A stretch of DNA of 38,686 nucleotides from assembly GCA_019510095.1 (NCBI GenBank), contig JAEKLB010000027.1, positions 1 through 38,686 of the forward strand. Direction: 5' to 3'. Made by a program: the position numbers and the translations under genes. Of the stretch, positions 9,368-14,284 are shown in pieces. This stretch comes from Acidobacteriota bacterium (GTDB lineage Bacteria; Actinomycetota; Acidimicrobiia; Acidimicrobiales; CADCSY01). Numbering within the stretch: position 1 is the stretch's first letter; the number at the start of each line of letters is the position of its first letter. The notes below the pieces were generated by a model. It had not been told where the DNA came from and ran no database searches. It was given only the letters and a program-made list of their open reading frames with translations.

Positions 9368-10669
9368 GTGAGGTTCACCGCTAGCGACGTGGCTGCCGCG
9401 ACCGGCGGCGAGCTGGTGGGTCCCGACGTCGAGATCGACGGCGTCTCGGTCGACACCAGGGCCGAGGTGGCCGGCCGGCTGTTCGTGCCGATCGTCGCAG
9501 CTCGCGACGGCCACGACTTCATACCGGCTGCCCTCGCTGGCGGCGCGGCGGCGTACCTCACGGTTGGCCCCGCCGAGGGCGGGACGGCCATCAGGGTCGA
9601 CGACACGCTCGTGGCGCTTGGCGCGGTCGGCCGGGCCGCCCGCGACCGGCTTCCCGACGTTGTCGTGGGGATCACCGGATCGGTGGGCAAGACCAGCGTG
9701 AAGGACCTGCTGGCCGCAGTGCTGGCCCAGCGCTTCCGGACGGTGTCGAGCGAGCGGTCGTTCAACAACGAGATCGGTGTGCCGATCACCCTCGCCAACG
9801 CGCCCGGCGACACCGAAGCGGCCGTGGTCGAGATGGGTGCCCGCGGCATCGGCCACATCCGACTCCTGTGCGGCATCGCCCGGCCGGTGGTCGGTGTGGT
9901 CACCGCCGTCGGCCACGTGCACACCGAGCTGTTCGGCACCATCGACGACGTCGCCATCGGCAAGGGCGAGCTTGTCGAGGCGCTGCCGGCGGACGGCACG
10001 GCCATCCTCAACGCCGACGACGATCGCGTGGCGGCGATGGCCGTCCGGTCGTCGGCACCGGTTGTGTCGTACGGGCTCGCCGGCGCCGACGTCACCGCCG
10101 AGCACGTGGCGCTCGACGACGACCTGCGGGCGTCGTTCCGGCTGTGCTCGCCGGCCGGCACCGTCGAGGTCTCGCTCTCGGCCCGCGGCGCCCATCAGGT
10201 GTCGAACGCGCTGGCGGCGGCGGCGGCCGGTCTGGCATGCGGGGTCGAGCTCGACGCCATCGCCGCCGGGTTGCACGACGCCGCCCTGTCGCCGTGGCGG
10301 ATGGAGCTCGCTCGCACCCGCACCGGCGCGCTGGTGCTCAACGACTCGTACAACGCCAACCCGATCTCGGTGGCGGCTGCGCTTCAGGCATTGGCCCACT
10401 TGCCGGCTCGCCGCCGGGTGGCAGTGCTGGGCACCATGGCCGAGCTCGGCGATGTGGCCGACCGTGAGCACGCCCAGGTCGGGGCGCTTGCCGATCGGCT
10501 TGGTCTGCGGTTGGTGGCGGTGGGCGAGTCCCGTTACGGCGGTGAGCTGGTGAGCACGCTCGACGACGCGGCGACGCTCCTCGGCGATCTCGGTGAAGGG
10601 GACGCGGTGCTGCTCAAGGGAAGTCGGGTTGCCGGGCTCGAGCGCCTCGCCGAACGGCTGCTGGGATGA
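9368..10669 (+). CDS. murF: UDP-N-acetylmuramoyl-tripeptide--D-alanyl-D-alanine ligase
   Basis: A 433-residue Mur ligase that adds D-Ala-D-Ala to UDP-MurNAc-tripeptide in the cytoplasm. It shows the N-terminal MurF domain with GVSVDTR and a GRLFVPIVAARDGHDF segment (about 25-51), the ATP P-loop GITGSVGKTS at 101-110, the family strand ERSFNNEIGVPITL, the magnesium-binding VVEMGARGIGHI, and the C-terminal VLNDSYNANP motif. The GTG at 9368 begins MRFTASDVAAATGG, the usual MurF start. The next gene overlaps it by 4 bases (ATGA). Its partner ddl is divergent and 18 bases away. The usual dcw partners (mraY, murD, ftsW) are not adjacent. Confidence 0.94.
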   Translation: MRFTASDVAAATGGELVGPDVEIDGVSVDTRAEVAGRLFVPIVAARDGHDFIPAALAGGAAAYLTVGPAEGGTAIRVDDTLVALGAVGRAARDRLPDVVVGITGSVGKTSVKDLLAAVLAQRFRTVSSERSFNNEIGVPITLANAPGDTEAAVVEMGARGIGHIRLLCGIARPVVGVVTAVGHVHTELFGTIDDVAIGKGELVEALPADGTAILNADDDRVAAMAVRSSAPVVSYGLAGADVTAEHVALDDDLRASFRLCSPAGTVEVSLSARGAHQVSNALAAAAAGLACGVELDAIAAGLHDAALSPWRMELARTRTGALVLNDSYNANPISVAAALQALAHLPARRRVAVLGTMAELGDVADREHAQVGALADRLGLRLVAVGESRYGGELVSTLDDAATLLGDLGEGDAVLLKGSRVAGLERLAERLLG

Positions 10670-11577
10670 CCGTCGCCGTTTCCGTCGTCCCCGAGGACGC
10701 CCCCGCGTGGGTCGTCGACGCTGTCCGCGCCGGCGGCGGCATGATCGTCCCGCTCGCCGAGGCCGAGGCGTTGGTGTGGGCCAACCCGTGGCAGCCCGAT
10801 CTCCTGGGCCGGGTCGTTGCGGGCGCGCCCCAGCTCCGCTGGGTCCACCTGCCCTTCGCTGGCGTCGAGCCCTACATCGACCTCATGACGCCTGACCGGG
10901 TGTGGACGTGCGGCAAGGGCGTCTACGCCGAGCCGGTCGCCGAGCACGCCTTGGCCTTGGCGCTCGCCGGGCTGCGCTGCCTGCCGACGAGGATCACGGC
11001 GCGGGAGTGGGGCGCCCACGACGGGCGGTCGCTGTTCGACCGGCCGGTCACGATCGTGGGTGGTGGCGGCATCACCGAGTGGTTGGTCCGGCTGCTGGCG
11101 CCGTTCCGGTGCGCGGTCACCGTCGTGCGCCGCCAGGACGTGCCGTTCGCTGGTGCCGACCGCGTCCTCACCGTCGACCACCTCCACGAGGCGCTCCCCG
11201 GTGCCGCGGTGGTGTTCCTGGCCCTGGCGCTGACGCCGGCGACGACCGGGATCATCGGTGCCGCCGAGCTGGCGGCCATGGATGCCGAGGCCTGGTTGGT
11301 GAACGTGGCCCGCGGCCGGCACGTGGTGACCGACGACCTGGTCGCGGCGCTGCGCGATGGCGTGATCGGGGGTGCCGCCCTCGACGTGACCGACCCCGAG
11401 CCGCTGCCGCCCGGGCATCCGCTGTGGGAGCTGCCGAACTGCATCATCACCCCACACACGGCCAATACGGTCCCCATGGCCCAGCCCCACCTGGCGGCCC
11501 GGCTCACCCAGAACGTGGCCGCCTACGCCGCCGGCCGGCCGCTGATCGGCACCGTCGACCTGGCCGCTGGCTACTGA
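10666..11577 (+). CDS. D-2-hydroxyacid dehydrogenase family protein
   Basis: A 303-residue NAD-dependent 2-hydroxyacid dehydrogenase. The C-terminal catalytic features are present: VNVARGRHV (Arg), DVTDPEPLPPGHPLW (Glu) and ITPHTAN (His). The dinucleotide loop reads VGGGGITEWL in place of the usual GLGxIG, so the third glycine is a threonine. The substrate-binding domain is shorter than in typical enzymes (about 330 residues). It is ATGA-coupled to murF, so both are made from one message; a link with cell-wall D-amino or hydroxy acids (for example D-lactate) is possible but unproven. Confidence 0.85.
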   Translation: MTVAVSVVPEDAPAWVVDAVRAGGGMIVPLAEAEALVWANPWQPDLLGRVVAGAPQLRWVHLPFAGVEPYIDLMTPDRVWTCGKGVYAEPVAEHALALALAGLRCLPTRITAREWGAHDGRSLFDRPVTIVGGGGITEWLVRLLAPFRCAVTVVRRQDVPFAGADRVLTVDHLHEALPGAAVVFLALALTPATTGIIGAAELAAMDAEAWLVNVARGRHVVTDDLVAALRDGVIGGAALDVTDPEPLPPGHPLWELPNCIITPHTANTVPMAQPHLAARLTQNVAAYAAGRPLIGTVDLAAGY

Positions 11578-11618
11578 CGGGACCCAGGCCTGTTCCCTGG
11601 TTGACGATGCGTTGGCCG

Positions 11619-11624
11619 TAACGT
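11619..11624 (+). promoter_or_regulatory. -10 box TAACGT upstream of the J-domain gene
   Basis: TAACGT fits TANNNT and ends 6 bases before an ATC codon at 11631 that opens the full J-domain frame. An in-frame TGA at 11625-11627 closes the frame just upstream, so no conventional start lies between the box and the domain. Confidence 0.5.
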
Positions 11625-11630
11625 TGAGCC

Positions 11631-12290
11631 ATCGCCATCCAGACGCTCTACGACGTGCTCGGCGTGCAGCGTCGAGCCACTCCGGAGGAGATTCGGCGCG
11701 CCTACCACGACCTGGCGCGGGTGCTGCATCCCGACCGGCTCGAGGGACGGATGGGTCCAGAGCGGGTTGGCGCCGAACGGCGGATGCAAGAGATCAACGA
11801 GGCCTGGCGGATCCTGCGCGATCCGGGGTCACGGGCCGCCTACGACCAGTCGCTGGGCATGCGGGCGGCCAAGCCGCCTCGGCCCCAGGCGACGCCGAGC
11901 GCCCGGGACGACGACGACGACCTCGACTTCGACACGCCCTTCCAGGGGAAGCCGGCTGAGCCGGGAGACCTCACCGTGTCGGTGGCCCGGGCCCTGCCGT
12001 GGCTGGTCATCGCCGTGGTGCTCGGCGCCATCTTCATCTTCACCGCCTTTGCCCGCCACAGCACGTCGGAGGCGCCCAAGCCGAGCTCGCTGATCGGCCA
12101 GTGCATCACCTCGAGCGGCGGGGGCATGGTGGCGGTGCCCTGCGCCGGGCCCAACGACGGCAAGGTCATCGACGTCGAGCCCGAGGCGTCGGCCTGCCCG
12201 TCGGGCAGCAGCGCCCGGTCGGTGTCGGCCAAGGAGTGGATGTGCCTCGAGCCGGTCGCCCAGGGCGCCACCGGCACCACGTCCCCGTAG
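11631..12290 (+). CDS. Membrane-anchored J-domain (DnaJ-like) protein, likely ATC start
   Basis: From 11631 the frame encodes 219 residues. An N-terminal J domain (about residues 5-65) begins QTLYDVLGV, contains the HPD motif in VLHPDRL, and ends EAWRILRDPGSRAAYD; J domains stimulate Hsp70 ATPase. An acidic linker (DDDDDLDFDTPF) leads to one transmembrane helix (LPWLVIAVVLGAIFIF, about 120-140) and an outer tail with a few cysteines. The only GTG in range (11655) would cut off the conserved Tyr-Asp of helix I, and an in-frame stop sits at 11625, so ATC at 11631 (IAIQTLYD) or possibly ATC at 11637 is the best start, placed as for the other leaderless genes. The stop TAG forms part of the next gene's -10 box. 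Confidence 0.75.
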   Translation: MAIQTLYDVLGVQRRATPEEIRRAYHDLARVLHPDRLEGRMGPERVGAERRMQEINEAWRILRDPGSRAAYDQSLGMRAAKPPRPQATPSARDDDDDLDFDTPFQGKPAEPGDLTVSVARALPWLVIAVVLGAIFIFTAFARHSTSEAPKPSSLIGQCITSSGGGMVAVPCAGPNDGKVIDVEPEASACPSGSSARSVSAKEWMCLEPVAQGATGTTSP

Positions 12291-12293
12291 ATT
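12288..12293 (+). promoter_or_regulatory. -10 box TAGATT, leaderless start at 12300
   Basis: TAGATT ends 6 bases before the GTG at 12300. Its first three bases are the stop codon of the J-domain gene. Confidence 0.55.
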
Positions 12294-12299
12294 GACGCC

Positions 12300-12965
12300 G
12301 TGACCGCGCCGGTCGCCCCCTGGCCGCTCAGTGGCGAGTGCATGGTCGCACTGGCCCGGTGCCCCGCGACCCGCGGCGACCTGCCCCACGGCATCAGCCC
12401 GCTTCGGGGTCGAGTGCTCATCGTCGCCGCCCGTTACGACGCCTCACCCGTCGGGGCCTACCGCGAGCTGGCCATCGGCGAGCCGGCCCGTCTCGGACCC
12501 CGGCTGGGTTGGTGCTTCACGACGGTGGTGACGACCTCCAACGAGGCGCGGATGGGCGGCCGGCTCAACTGGGGCTTCCCCAAGGAGCTCGGCACGCTCG
12601 ACTGGTCGGCCGACGGCAACCTCCGCACCCTCCGATGGGTCGAGCGCGATGTCGTGGTCAGCGGATCGGTCTCCCGCCGCCTCCTGCCGATGGTGCTCCC
12701 GGTGCGGGCGCTCCAGCGCCGCAACGATGGCCCGGTCGTGGTGCCATGGTTCTTTCGCGGCCTCGGCCGCCTCGCTCACGTGTCGGTCGAGACCCCGCCC
12801 GACGACGGGCTGGCCCCGCTCCAGGGTGAGCATCGAGGTGTCGACGTGGCCAGCACCCACTTCGTCATGCGCCCGGCACGGCACCCCATTGGCATCGCGT
12901 CGACCTTCCGGGCCCCCCTTCGTGCGCCCGAGCCCGCGCTATCTTTGTCCGCCCCGGGCGATTAG
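12300..12965 (+). CDS. Acetoacetate decarboxylase-like fold protein
   Basis: A 221-residue protein resembling the acetoacetate decarboxylase-like superfamily: a hydrophobic-rich barrel with VGAYRELAIGEPARLG, the diagnostic TTVVTTSNEARMGGRLNWGFPKELGTLDW stretch (about residues 74-102), and paired strands after it. The catalytic lysine of true decarboxylases aligns near GFPKELG, but I cannot confirm the active site, so the reaction is uncertain. The GTG start is leaderless by position. The 3' end is unusual: the last ten bases, including the TAG stop, are the first ten bases of a tRNA-Val gene, whose -10 box is also inside this reading frame. Confidence 0.75.
   Translation: MTAPVAPWPLSGECMVALARCPATRGDLPHGISPLRGRVLIVAARYDASPVGAYRELAIGEPARLGPRLGWCFTTVVTTSNEARMGGRLNWGFPKELGTLDWSADGNLRTLRWVERDVVVSGSVSRRLLPMVLPVRALQRRNDGPVVVPWFFRGLGRLAHVSVETPPDDGLAPLQGEHRGVDVASTHFVMRPARHPIGIASTFRAPLRAPEPALSLSAPGD
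12940..12945 (+). promoter_or_regulatory. -10 box TATCTT for tRNA-Val
   Basis: TATCTT lies 10 bases upstream of the mature tRNA 5' end, inside the end of the preceding coding region. This is a normal distance for a tRNA promoter. Confidence 0.55.
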
Positions 12966-13027
12966 CTCAGCGGTAGAGCGCTGCCTTCACACGGCAGAGG
13001 CCCGCGGTTCGAGACCGCGATCGCCCA
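12956..13027 (+). tRNA. tRNA-Val (anticodon CAC)
   Basis: A 72-base cloverleaf. The acceptor stem GGGCGAT pairs with ATCGCCC; the D arm is GCTC/GAGC with an AGCGGTA loop; the anticodon stem CTGCC/GGCAG encloses TTCACAC, giving anticodon CAC for valine GTG; the variable loop is AGGCC; the T arm CGCGG/CCGCG encloses TTCGAGA. The discriminator is A and the 3' CCA is not encoded (genomic CCG). Its first ten bases are also the end of the upstream coding region, and an integrase gene follows about 120 bases downstream. Confidence 0.96.
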
Positions 13028-13053
13028 CCGGGAATCCGCAGGTCACGGCATGT

Positions 13054-13081
13054 GAGGCGAGTCTTCGGACTCGCCTCTTCT
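13054..13081 (+). terminator. Intrinsic-type terminator after tRNA-Val
   Basis: A 10-bp GC-rich stem (GAGGCGAGTC/GACTCGCCTC) with a TTCG tetraloop is followed by TTCT, 27 bases after the tRNA. A related hairpin with compensated stem changes occurs at 16834, in front of a related repeat. Confidence 0.75.
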
Positions 13082-13082
13082 G

Positions 13083-13189
13083 CTGATCCCCCGCGGAAAA
13101 CCCGCGAAAACCCGCGGACATTGGCGGTCACCCGCGGGGCATGACGGTCATCAGAGGCCAAGGCCCTGCCCTCTGCCGAGCTCATCGAG
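13083..13189. repeat. Island repeat, left copy
   Basis: About 107 bases covering the end of the integrase gene and its downstream region are imperfectly repeated at 16861-16958. The best core is 36 bases (13116-13151) with three mismatches to 16884-16919. It begins with GGACATTGGCGGTC and ends TGACGGTCAT; the block also contains several CCGCGG/CCCGCG units that may be integrase arm sites. Confidence 0.7.
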
Positions 13190-14284
13190 TCGGTCGATGA
13201 CCTCGCGCTCGTGTCCCGGGAAGAGATGGCCGTAGCGGTCGAGCACGACCGCGACCGACGTGTGGCCGGCCCACGTCGCGATCTGCTTCGGGCTGGCGCC
13301 GGCAGCGATCCAGAGCGACACGGCGGTGTGGCGAAGGTCGTGTGGCCGCAGTGGGTCGACGCCCGCCGCCTTGATGGCGGGGTTCCAGTGACGTTGCCGC
13401 CACTGGGAGGCCCGGAGGATGCCGCCGTCAGAGCCAGGGAAGACGAGCCCGTCGGGAGCTGGTGCCGCATACGTGTCGAGATGGTCCCGGAGGGCGTCGA
13501 CGACGAGGCGGGGGAGTGGGACGTCGCGTCGGCCGGCGTTGGTCTTGGGCGGGCCGTGGAAGATCCCTCCCCGGACCTCGACGGCGATCTGGCTGACCCG
13601 GACGACTCGGCGCTCGAGATCGAGCTGTGACCGCCGGAGCCCGGCCAGCTCGCCGAGCCGAAGGCCGGCGTAGGCATCAAGGAGGACCAGGGCGCGGTAG
13701 CGGGGTGTGATGGCTTCGGCCAGGCGTGCGATCTCGGCGGGCGCTATCACCCGCATCTCTCGGCGCTCGATCCGGGGCAGTGAGATCCGGTCCGCCGGGC
13801 TTCGACGGATCATCCCGGCGTCTACCGCGCCACGGAGGAGCTTCGAGAGCGTCTGGAACACCTTGTGCACCGTCGCCGGCGCCAGGCCGCGGCCGTGGAG
13901 CTCGGTCACCCATCGGCGGATCTCCATGTGTGTGAGCTGACCCAGGGGGACATCGCCGAACGCGGTGAGCACGTGATTCCGGAGATACGACTCATCCCGC
14001 GCCCGCGACGACGGCCGGAGGCTCACATCGGAACGTGTGAACTCCTCAGCCCAGTCCCGCAGAGGCATCCGACCGCCAGCGGGGTCGAGCCACTCGCCTC
14101 GCTGCCGGTCGGCCTCCGTCCGTGACAGGAACCACTGCGCCTCCCGCTTGGTGCCGAACCGTCGAGAGCGCTCACGGCCGTCGGGCGCCCGATACCGAGC
14201 CTCCCAACGCCCCGACTCCACCCGGCGCACATGTCCCACAGCCGCCGATGATGAAGACGACCACTCACTGGTTGTCTCACACAC
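13151..14284 (-). CDS. Tyrosine recombinase/phage-type integrase
   Basis: A 377-residue site-specific recombinase. The N-terminus has an arm-binding-like strand (GRWEARYRAPDGRERS), then a SAM-like core-binding domain (LRDWAEEFTRSD to the TVHKVFQTLSKLL helix), then the catalytic domain with all expected residues: Arg in AGLRLGELAGL, His-x-x-Arg in HDLRHTAVS, His in AGHTSVAVV and nucleophile Tyr in LDRYGHL. It looks intact. It sits just downstream of tRNA-Val and reads toward it, the usual layout for an element using that tRNA as its target. The GTG start at 14284 gives a serine-rich leader; GTG at 14239 is an alternative. A diverged remnant of a similar C-terminus lies at the island's far end. 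Confidence 0.9.
   Translation of the reverse strand: MCETTSEWSSSSSAAVGHVRRVESGRWEARYRAPDGRERSRRFGTKREAQWFLSRTEADRQRGEWLDPAGGRMPLRDWAEEFTRSDVSLRPSSRARDESYLRNHVLTAFGDVPLGQLTHMEIRRWVTELHGRGLAPATVHKVFQTLSKLLRGAVDAGMIRRSPADRISLPRIERREMRVIAPAEIARLAEAITPRYRALVLLDAYAGLRLGELAGLRRSQLDLERRVVRVSQIAVEVRGGIFHGPPKTNAGRRDVPLPRLVVDALRDHLDTYAAPAPDGLVFPGSDGGILRASQWRQRHWNPAIKAAGVDPLRPHDLRHTAVSLWIAAGASPKQIATWAGHTSVAVVLDRYGHLFPGHEREVIDRLDELGRGQGLGL

Follow-up and report, generated by a model that had tools for sequence, protein, structure and literature searches.

The J-protein gene and its neighborhood

The window analyzed here, a 38,686-nt stretch of DNA from the order Acidimicrobiales, carries a gene for a membrane J protein on its plus strand (11631–12290). 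As judged from its translation, a PF00226 match and an alignment of its orthologs, the product consists of a J domain with an HPD motif, a linker, one hydrophobic segment and a Cys-containing C-terminal domain. The J domain matches PF00226 with an E value of 1.5e-18 and has HPD at +26 from a conserved Tyr; four conserved cysteines follow the transmembrane (TM) segment in the tail (12000–12287) of the aligned orthologs. An identity as a type I DnaJ chaperone was rejected because the full-length model TIGR02349 gives 64 bits against a cut-off of 377, with the match confined to the J domain. A Septum_form (PF13845) match in the C-terminal domain, seen in one of 12 members (E 0.006), is a weak lead.

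Where does this gene begin? Its frame, open to a TAG at 12288–12290, is closed upstream by an in-frame TGA (11625–11627), which rules out an N-terminal extension of the protein. From this TGA to the first in-frame GTG (11655–11657) there is no ATG, GTG or TTG, and from 11631 the frame reads ATC GCC ATC CAG ACG CTC TAC GAC. This first ATC (11631–11633) is the putative start codon, to be read as fMet, and the putative 5′ end of a leaderless mRNA; it follows TGAGCC (11625–11630), preceded in turn by TAACGT (11619–11624), a candidate −10 promoter box of the form TANNNT. When the window was re-read, a preliminary description of this DNA proved exact as to the TGA, the box, the ATC and the first GTG. 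A −35 reading of TTGACG (11601–11606) was dropped, as it lies only 12 nt from the −10 box.

Upstream lies a D-2-hydroxyacid dehydrogenase gene (10666–11577, plus strand; profile match to PF02826), which ends 53 nt before ATC 11631. The dehydrogenase immediately precedes the J gene at 51 of the 168 orthologous loci, among them 19 of the 28 with ATC. Downstream, an acetoacetate decarboxylase-like gene (PF06314; 12300–12965, plus strand) has a canonical, leaderless-like GTG start in the arrangement TAGATT-GACGCC-GTG. The TAG that stops the J gene is the first part of this putative −10 box, so that stop and promoter overlap (12288–12302). Farther on (12956–14284), a tRNA-Val(CAC) is followed by a minus-strand tyrosine-recombinase-like ORF (13151–14284), a layout that resembles a mobile-element integration site. 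The 6-nt spacing between box and start, which the preliminary description had likened to that of neighboring leaderless ATG and GTG genes, does recur in the window, at GTG 5200 (TAGCGT), GTG 12300 (TAGATT), GTG 22102 (TATGGT) and ATG 28142 (TAGCTT).

Start codons across the J-gene family

Searches of relatives, of the whole order and of single families yielded 170 distinct orthologs with the same architecture (a J domain, one TM segment and a Cys-rich tail); a scan of genome contigs gave only distant relatives. When J-domain starts were aligned across these relatives, as the preliminary description had suggested, 49 of the 170 turned out to have no usable ATG, GTG or TTG and to carry ATC (28), ACG (16) or ATT (5) where others have ATG or GTG. 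This set was built from 45 orthologs that lack the three canonical codons between codons −10 and −2 relative to the conserved Tyr, one of which (L072) probably starts at an upstream GTG, and from five added by hand: in four of these (three genomes of genus g47, and L219) the sole canonical codon falls within the −10 box or ahead of it, and in the fifth (L199) it lies 5 codons upstream. Many of the remaining orthologs have ATG or GTG, and 19 of 125 have a box 6–7 nt upstream; with ordinary ATG or GTG in some orthologs, the weak start is not universal in the J-gene family.

The non-AUG orthologs span at least eight families (f1, f3, f7, f18, f27, f40, f44 and f53, and less surely f6) and occur in single-contig genomes, with ATC in G017 and G351 and ACG in G272 and G098. 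Codon and context come in several combinations. Of the J genes sampled in family f7, those of genera g14, g195, g94 and g198 have ATC, and those of genus g183 have ATT, in most cases with an SD-like AGGT upstream; the ACG orthologs are leaderless-like in families f18 and f40 and follow an SD-like sequence such as AGGAGG in f3 and f53. The median protein identity among ATC orthologs is only 39%, a sign that the codon has survived deep divergence. Non-AUG starts cluster on the tree (FastTree, 168 proteins), which needs about 17 gains or losses.

Two further observations concern variation among close relatives. In genus g158, some of the species compared (L176, L181 and L211 vs L224 and L234) have a leaderless-like ATC; in others an ATC or ATT survives, with an ATG a few codons before it (e.g., ATG ACC ATC GGA GCT CAC), as if the start had moved or been rescued. 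The genome bin G385 holds two copies of the J gene (L164 and L219), one with ATG and one with ATC, the only canonical codon of the latter being a TTG inside the −10 box.

Evidence that the site is a start codon

Is it the codon or the residue that is conserved at this site? Position −4 from the conserved Tyr holds ATC in 24, ACG in 16 and ATT in five of the 49 non-AUG orthologs, the other four having an ATC shifted upstream. Residues on either side of −4 vary freely; in the TH-Y-..-LGV stretch downstream, the amino acids are kept and the codons change synonymously. Thr at −4 is encoded by ACG in 16 of 16 cases, Thr at −2 by ACG in 10, ACC in 15 and ACT in one of 26 (Fisher p 3e-5): since the Thr at the site is always ACG while the Thr two codons on varies, it is the codon that is conserved, not the residue. 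TANNNT lies 6–7 nt upstream in 25 of the 28 ATC orthologs vs 0.07 expected, a count mildly biased by the preference given to an ATC with a box wherever there was more than one to choose from; the box-to-ATC geometry is more than chance. In 24 of the 49, an in-frame stop is found no more than 13 codons from the Tyr; this stop is often the TAA or TAG of the box itself.

That an error of sequencing or assembly turned an ATG into this ATC, a miscall raised in the preliminary description, is hardly credible: although the window comes from a draft genome in 227 contigs (2.95 Mb), two dozen other genomes, the single-contig G017 and G351 among them, have this codon with the same distance to its box.

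Translation might instead begin at GTG 11655, the first canonical start and the one that standard gene finders would pick, to give a J domain without its first residues. In 33 of the 49 non-AUG orthologs, however, the first downstream ATG, GTG or TTG lies eight or more codons past the Tyr, with the loss of helix I, and in 18 it lies beyond HPD as well; moreover, the residues ahead of 11655 are kept even where their codons differ synonymously. A start at this GTG is very improbable, and the comparison marks it as an internal Val codon of helix I. The window J gene almost certainly starts translation at AUC 11631, not at AUG, GUG or UUG; the AUC start put forward in the preliminary description is thus strongly supported by the orthologs, through both their codons (49 of 170) and the box geometry (25 of 28). 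At the level of sequence comparison, the site is shown to be a start codon, non-AUG and an inherited trait of the J gene.

The non-AUG start follows the gene

Is AUC tolerated simply because the mRNA is leaderless, as first supposed? If so, the lineage would accept non-AUG leaderless starts generally, and the J gene would not be special. Leaderless genes are indeed common in the order, as counted by box and spacing over 1.72 Mb, but TANNNT with a 6-nt spacing precedes ATG 45 times, GTG 40 times, ATC three times, ACG once and TTG, CTG or ATT never; among the three ATC cases, one is the window J gene and two have ATG as the next codon. A homology control looked for other conserved genes without a canonical start. 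Its first version was noisy (shadow ORFs, alignments into non-coding DNA); a tightened version left 66 candidates, which a coding-frame filter reduced to five among 643 genes whose own frame was best, and none of the five was convincing on inspection. An isochorismatase-like gene in G017 with an apparent ACG start was set aside because an in-frame ATG lies 8 codons upstream. Together, the box counts and the 643-gene control assign the non-AUG trait to the J gene. Furthermore, SD-led J orthologs use ACG or ATT, so the property follows the gene and not the leaderless mode, and in mycobacteria it is the leaderless mode that is the stricter of the two, not the more tolerant (PMC4633059). Leaderless tolerance as the reason for AUC is not supported, and a general laxity of the lineage is quite improbable.

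The gene for IF3, infC, offers a control: it starts with AUU in E. coli and with ATC in Streptomyces, and is autoregulated by IF3. Read by eye in the 19 relatives in which its start was readable, infC in no case has a canonical start adjoining the conserved N-terminus. Among the 20 relatives compared (L262–L281, the window's own genome being L267), most have ATA at the start site, ATC being found there in at least three (L272, L273 and L278), and the upstream sequence is typically CAGGAGTGAT. An ATA or ATC start of infC in these genomes is as expected for an IF3-autoregulated gene, and its recovery indicates that the clade has a classical IF3-discriminated gene and that the method finds it. 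It is unusual in itself for AUA to prevail as the infC start of a lineage.

Proposed initiation at a leaderless AUC

In the proposed mechanism, RNA polymerase would use the TAACGT box and begin transcription at the A of ATC 11631 or at an adjacent base, producing an mRNA with neither a leader nor an SD site; the ribosome would then place initiator fMet-tRNA on AUC and make a protein that begins fMet-AIQTLYDVLGV.... Alternatively, the mRNA may not be leaderless: transcription could come from farther upstream, perhaps with the dehydrogenase, whose gene ends 53 nt before the ATC and lies upstream in 51 of 168 loci, with AUC being reached by coupling or reinitiation. Against this stand the lack of an SD sequence before the ATC and the TANNNT at 6–7 nt in 25 of 28 ATC orthologs. 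Coupling is unlikely, and would in any case leave the AUC start itself intact.

A leaderless AUC invites comparison with mycobacteria. Like Mycobacterium leaderless genes (PMC4633059), the J gene has a putative −10 box just ahead of its start codon, at the 6–7 nt spacing (TAACGT plus 6 nt), and no SD. The difference is in the codon: leaderless translation in M. smegmatis required a 5′ ATG or GTG, with ATC as the inactive negative control, whereas on leadered mRNAs ATT worked well and ATC weakly (PMC4633059). The codon at 11631, ATC, departs from the mycobacterial rule of a 5′-terminal AUG or GUG; if the mRNA is leaderless, AUC contradicts that rule. Either Acidimicrobiales differ in this respect, or expression from a leaderless AUC is very low and sufficient.

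A weak start kept on purpose?

AUC, ACG and AUU are all near-cognates that IF3 discriminates against. The retention of ACG or ATT by SD-led orthologs points to weak initiation, not leaderlessness, as the conserved feature. The presence of a non-AUG start in dozens of related bacteria suggests that the weak signal is deliberately retained as a means of limiting or regulating the protein; the weak codon would hold synthesis of the membrane co-chaperone low and responsive to IF3 or to the state of the ribosome. IF3 represses infC and Streptomyces sigR at their non-canonical starts, that of sigR being a GTC for which repression was established by experiment (PMC5472188), and by analogy the J-gene start is probably IF3-sensitive too. 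High IF3 in E. coli also inhibits leaderless mRNAs (PMC9031893). With IF3 acting against both non-canonical starts and leaderless mRNAs, an mRNA that is leaderless and starts with AUC might be sensitive on both counts.

How close are these parallels? Like infC, the J gene keeps a near-cognate non-AUG start (infC having ATA or ATC here) across a lineage; unlike infC, its product is not IF3 and there is no obvious autoregulatory loop, and its ATC is leaderless-like whereas infC is SD-led. Like sigR, it is an actinobacterial gene, other than that of IF3, whose non-canonical start is conserved and was missed by annotation; unlike sigR, which has an SD and encodes a sigma factor, it uses ATC, ACG or ATT and not GTC, and its repression by IF3 is proposed where that of sigR is experimental. 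As in both known cases, no canonical start lies between the in-frame stop and the conserved N-terminus, and a near-cognate is conserved across species. By its start codon, on which membership rests, the J gene appears to work like the infC/sigR class.

The codon might also be a genuine start yet a neutral or slightly deleterious state reached by drift, with no regulatory purpose. Each of the codons observed differs from ATG by one or two bases, and gains and losses recur (about 17 changes on the tree); on the other side, non-AUG starts persist in whole genera at a median identity of 39%, and the 643 other genes include no clear case. Drift is a minority reading that deserves to be taken seriously. 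A regulated start is favored: with good confidence, we hold that the J protein is made from AUC 11631, on what is probably a leaderless mRNA, and that this is a conserved, gene-specific, deliberately weak start, probably sensitive to IF3 like those of infC and sigR. A bolder form of this proposal, somewhat short of an even chance, is that Acidimicrobiales ribosomes initiate gene-specifically on the 5′-terminal AUC of a leaderless mRNA, breaking the AUG/GUG rule and tying the membrane J protein to IF3 or ribosome state in a conserved circuit of translational control.

To our knowledge, very few bacterial genes keep a start other than AUG, GUG or UUG through evolution (infC, sigR and a handful more), and literature searches on the J gene found no published description of its non-AUG start. 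It appears to be an additional gene in this class, with three codons and two initiation contexts in one family. Because the codon is ATC, ACG or ATT, the real start in these orthologs is invisible to gene callers that accept only ATG, GTG and TTG. With leaderless and SD-led variants in one gene family, the effects of codon and leader become separable by natural comparison. If the proposal is true, a chaperone cofactor with AUC, ACG and AUU variants joins the non-AUG genes, and both the use of AUC in leaderless initiation and the setting of membrane J-protein amount by the level of IF3 become testable.
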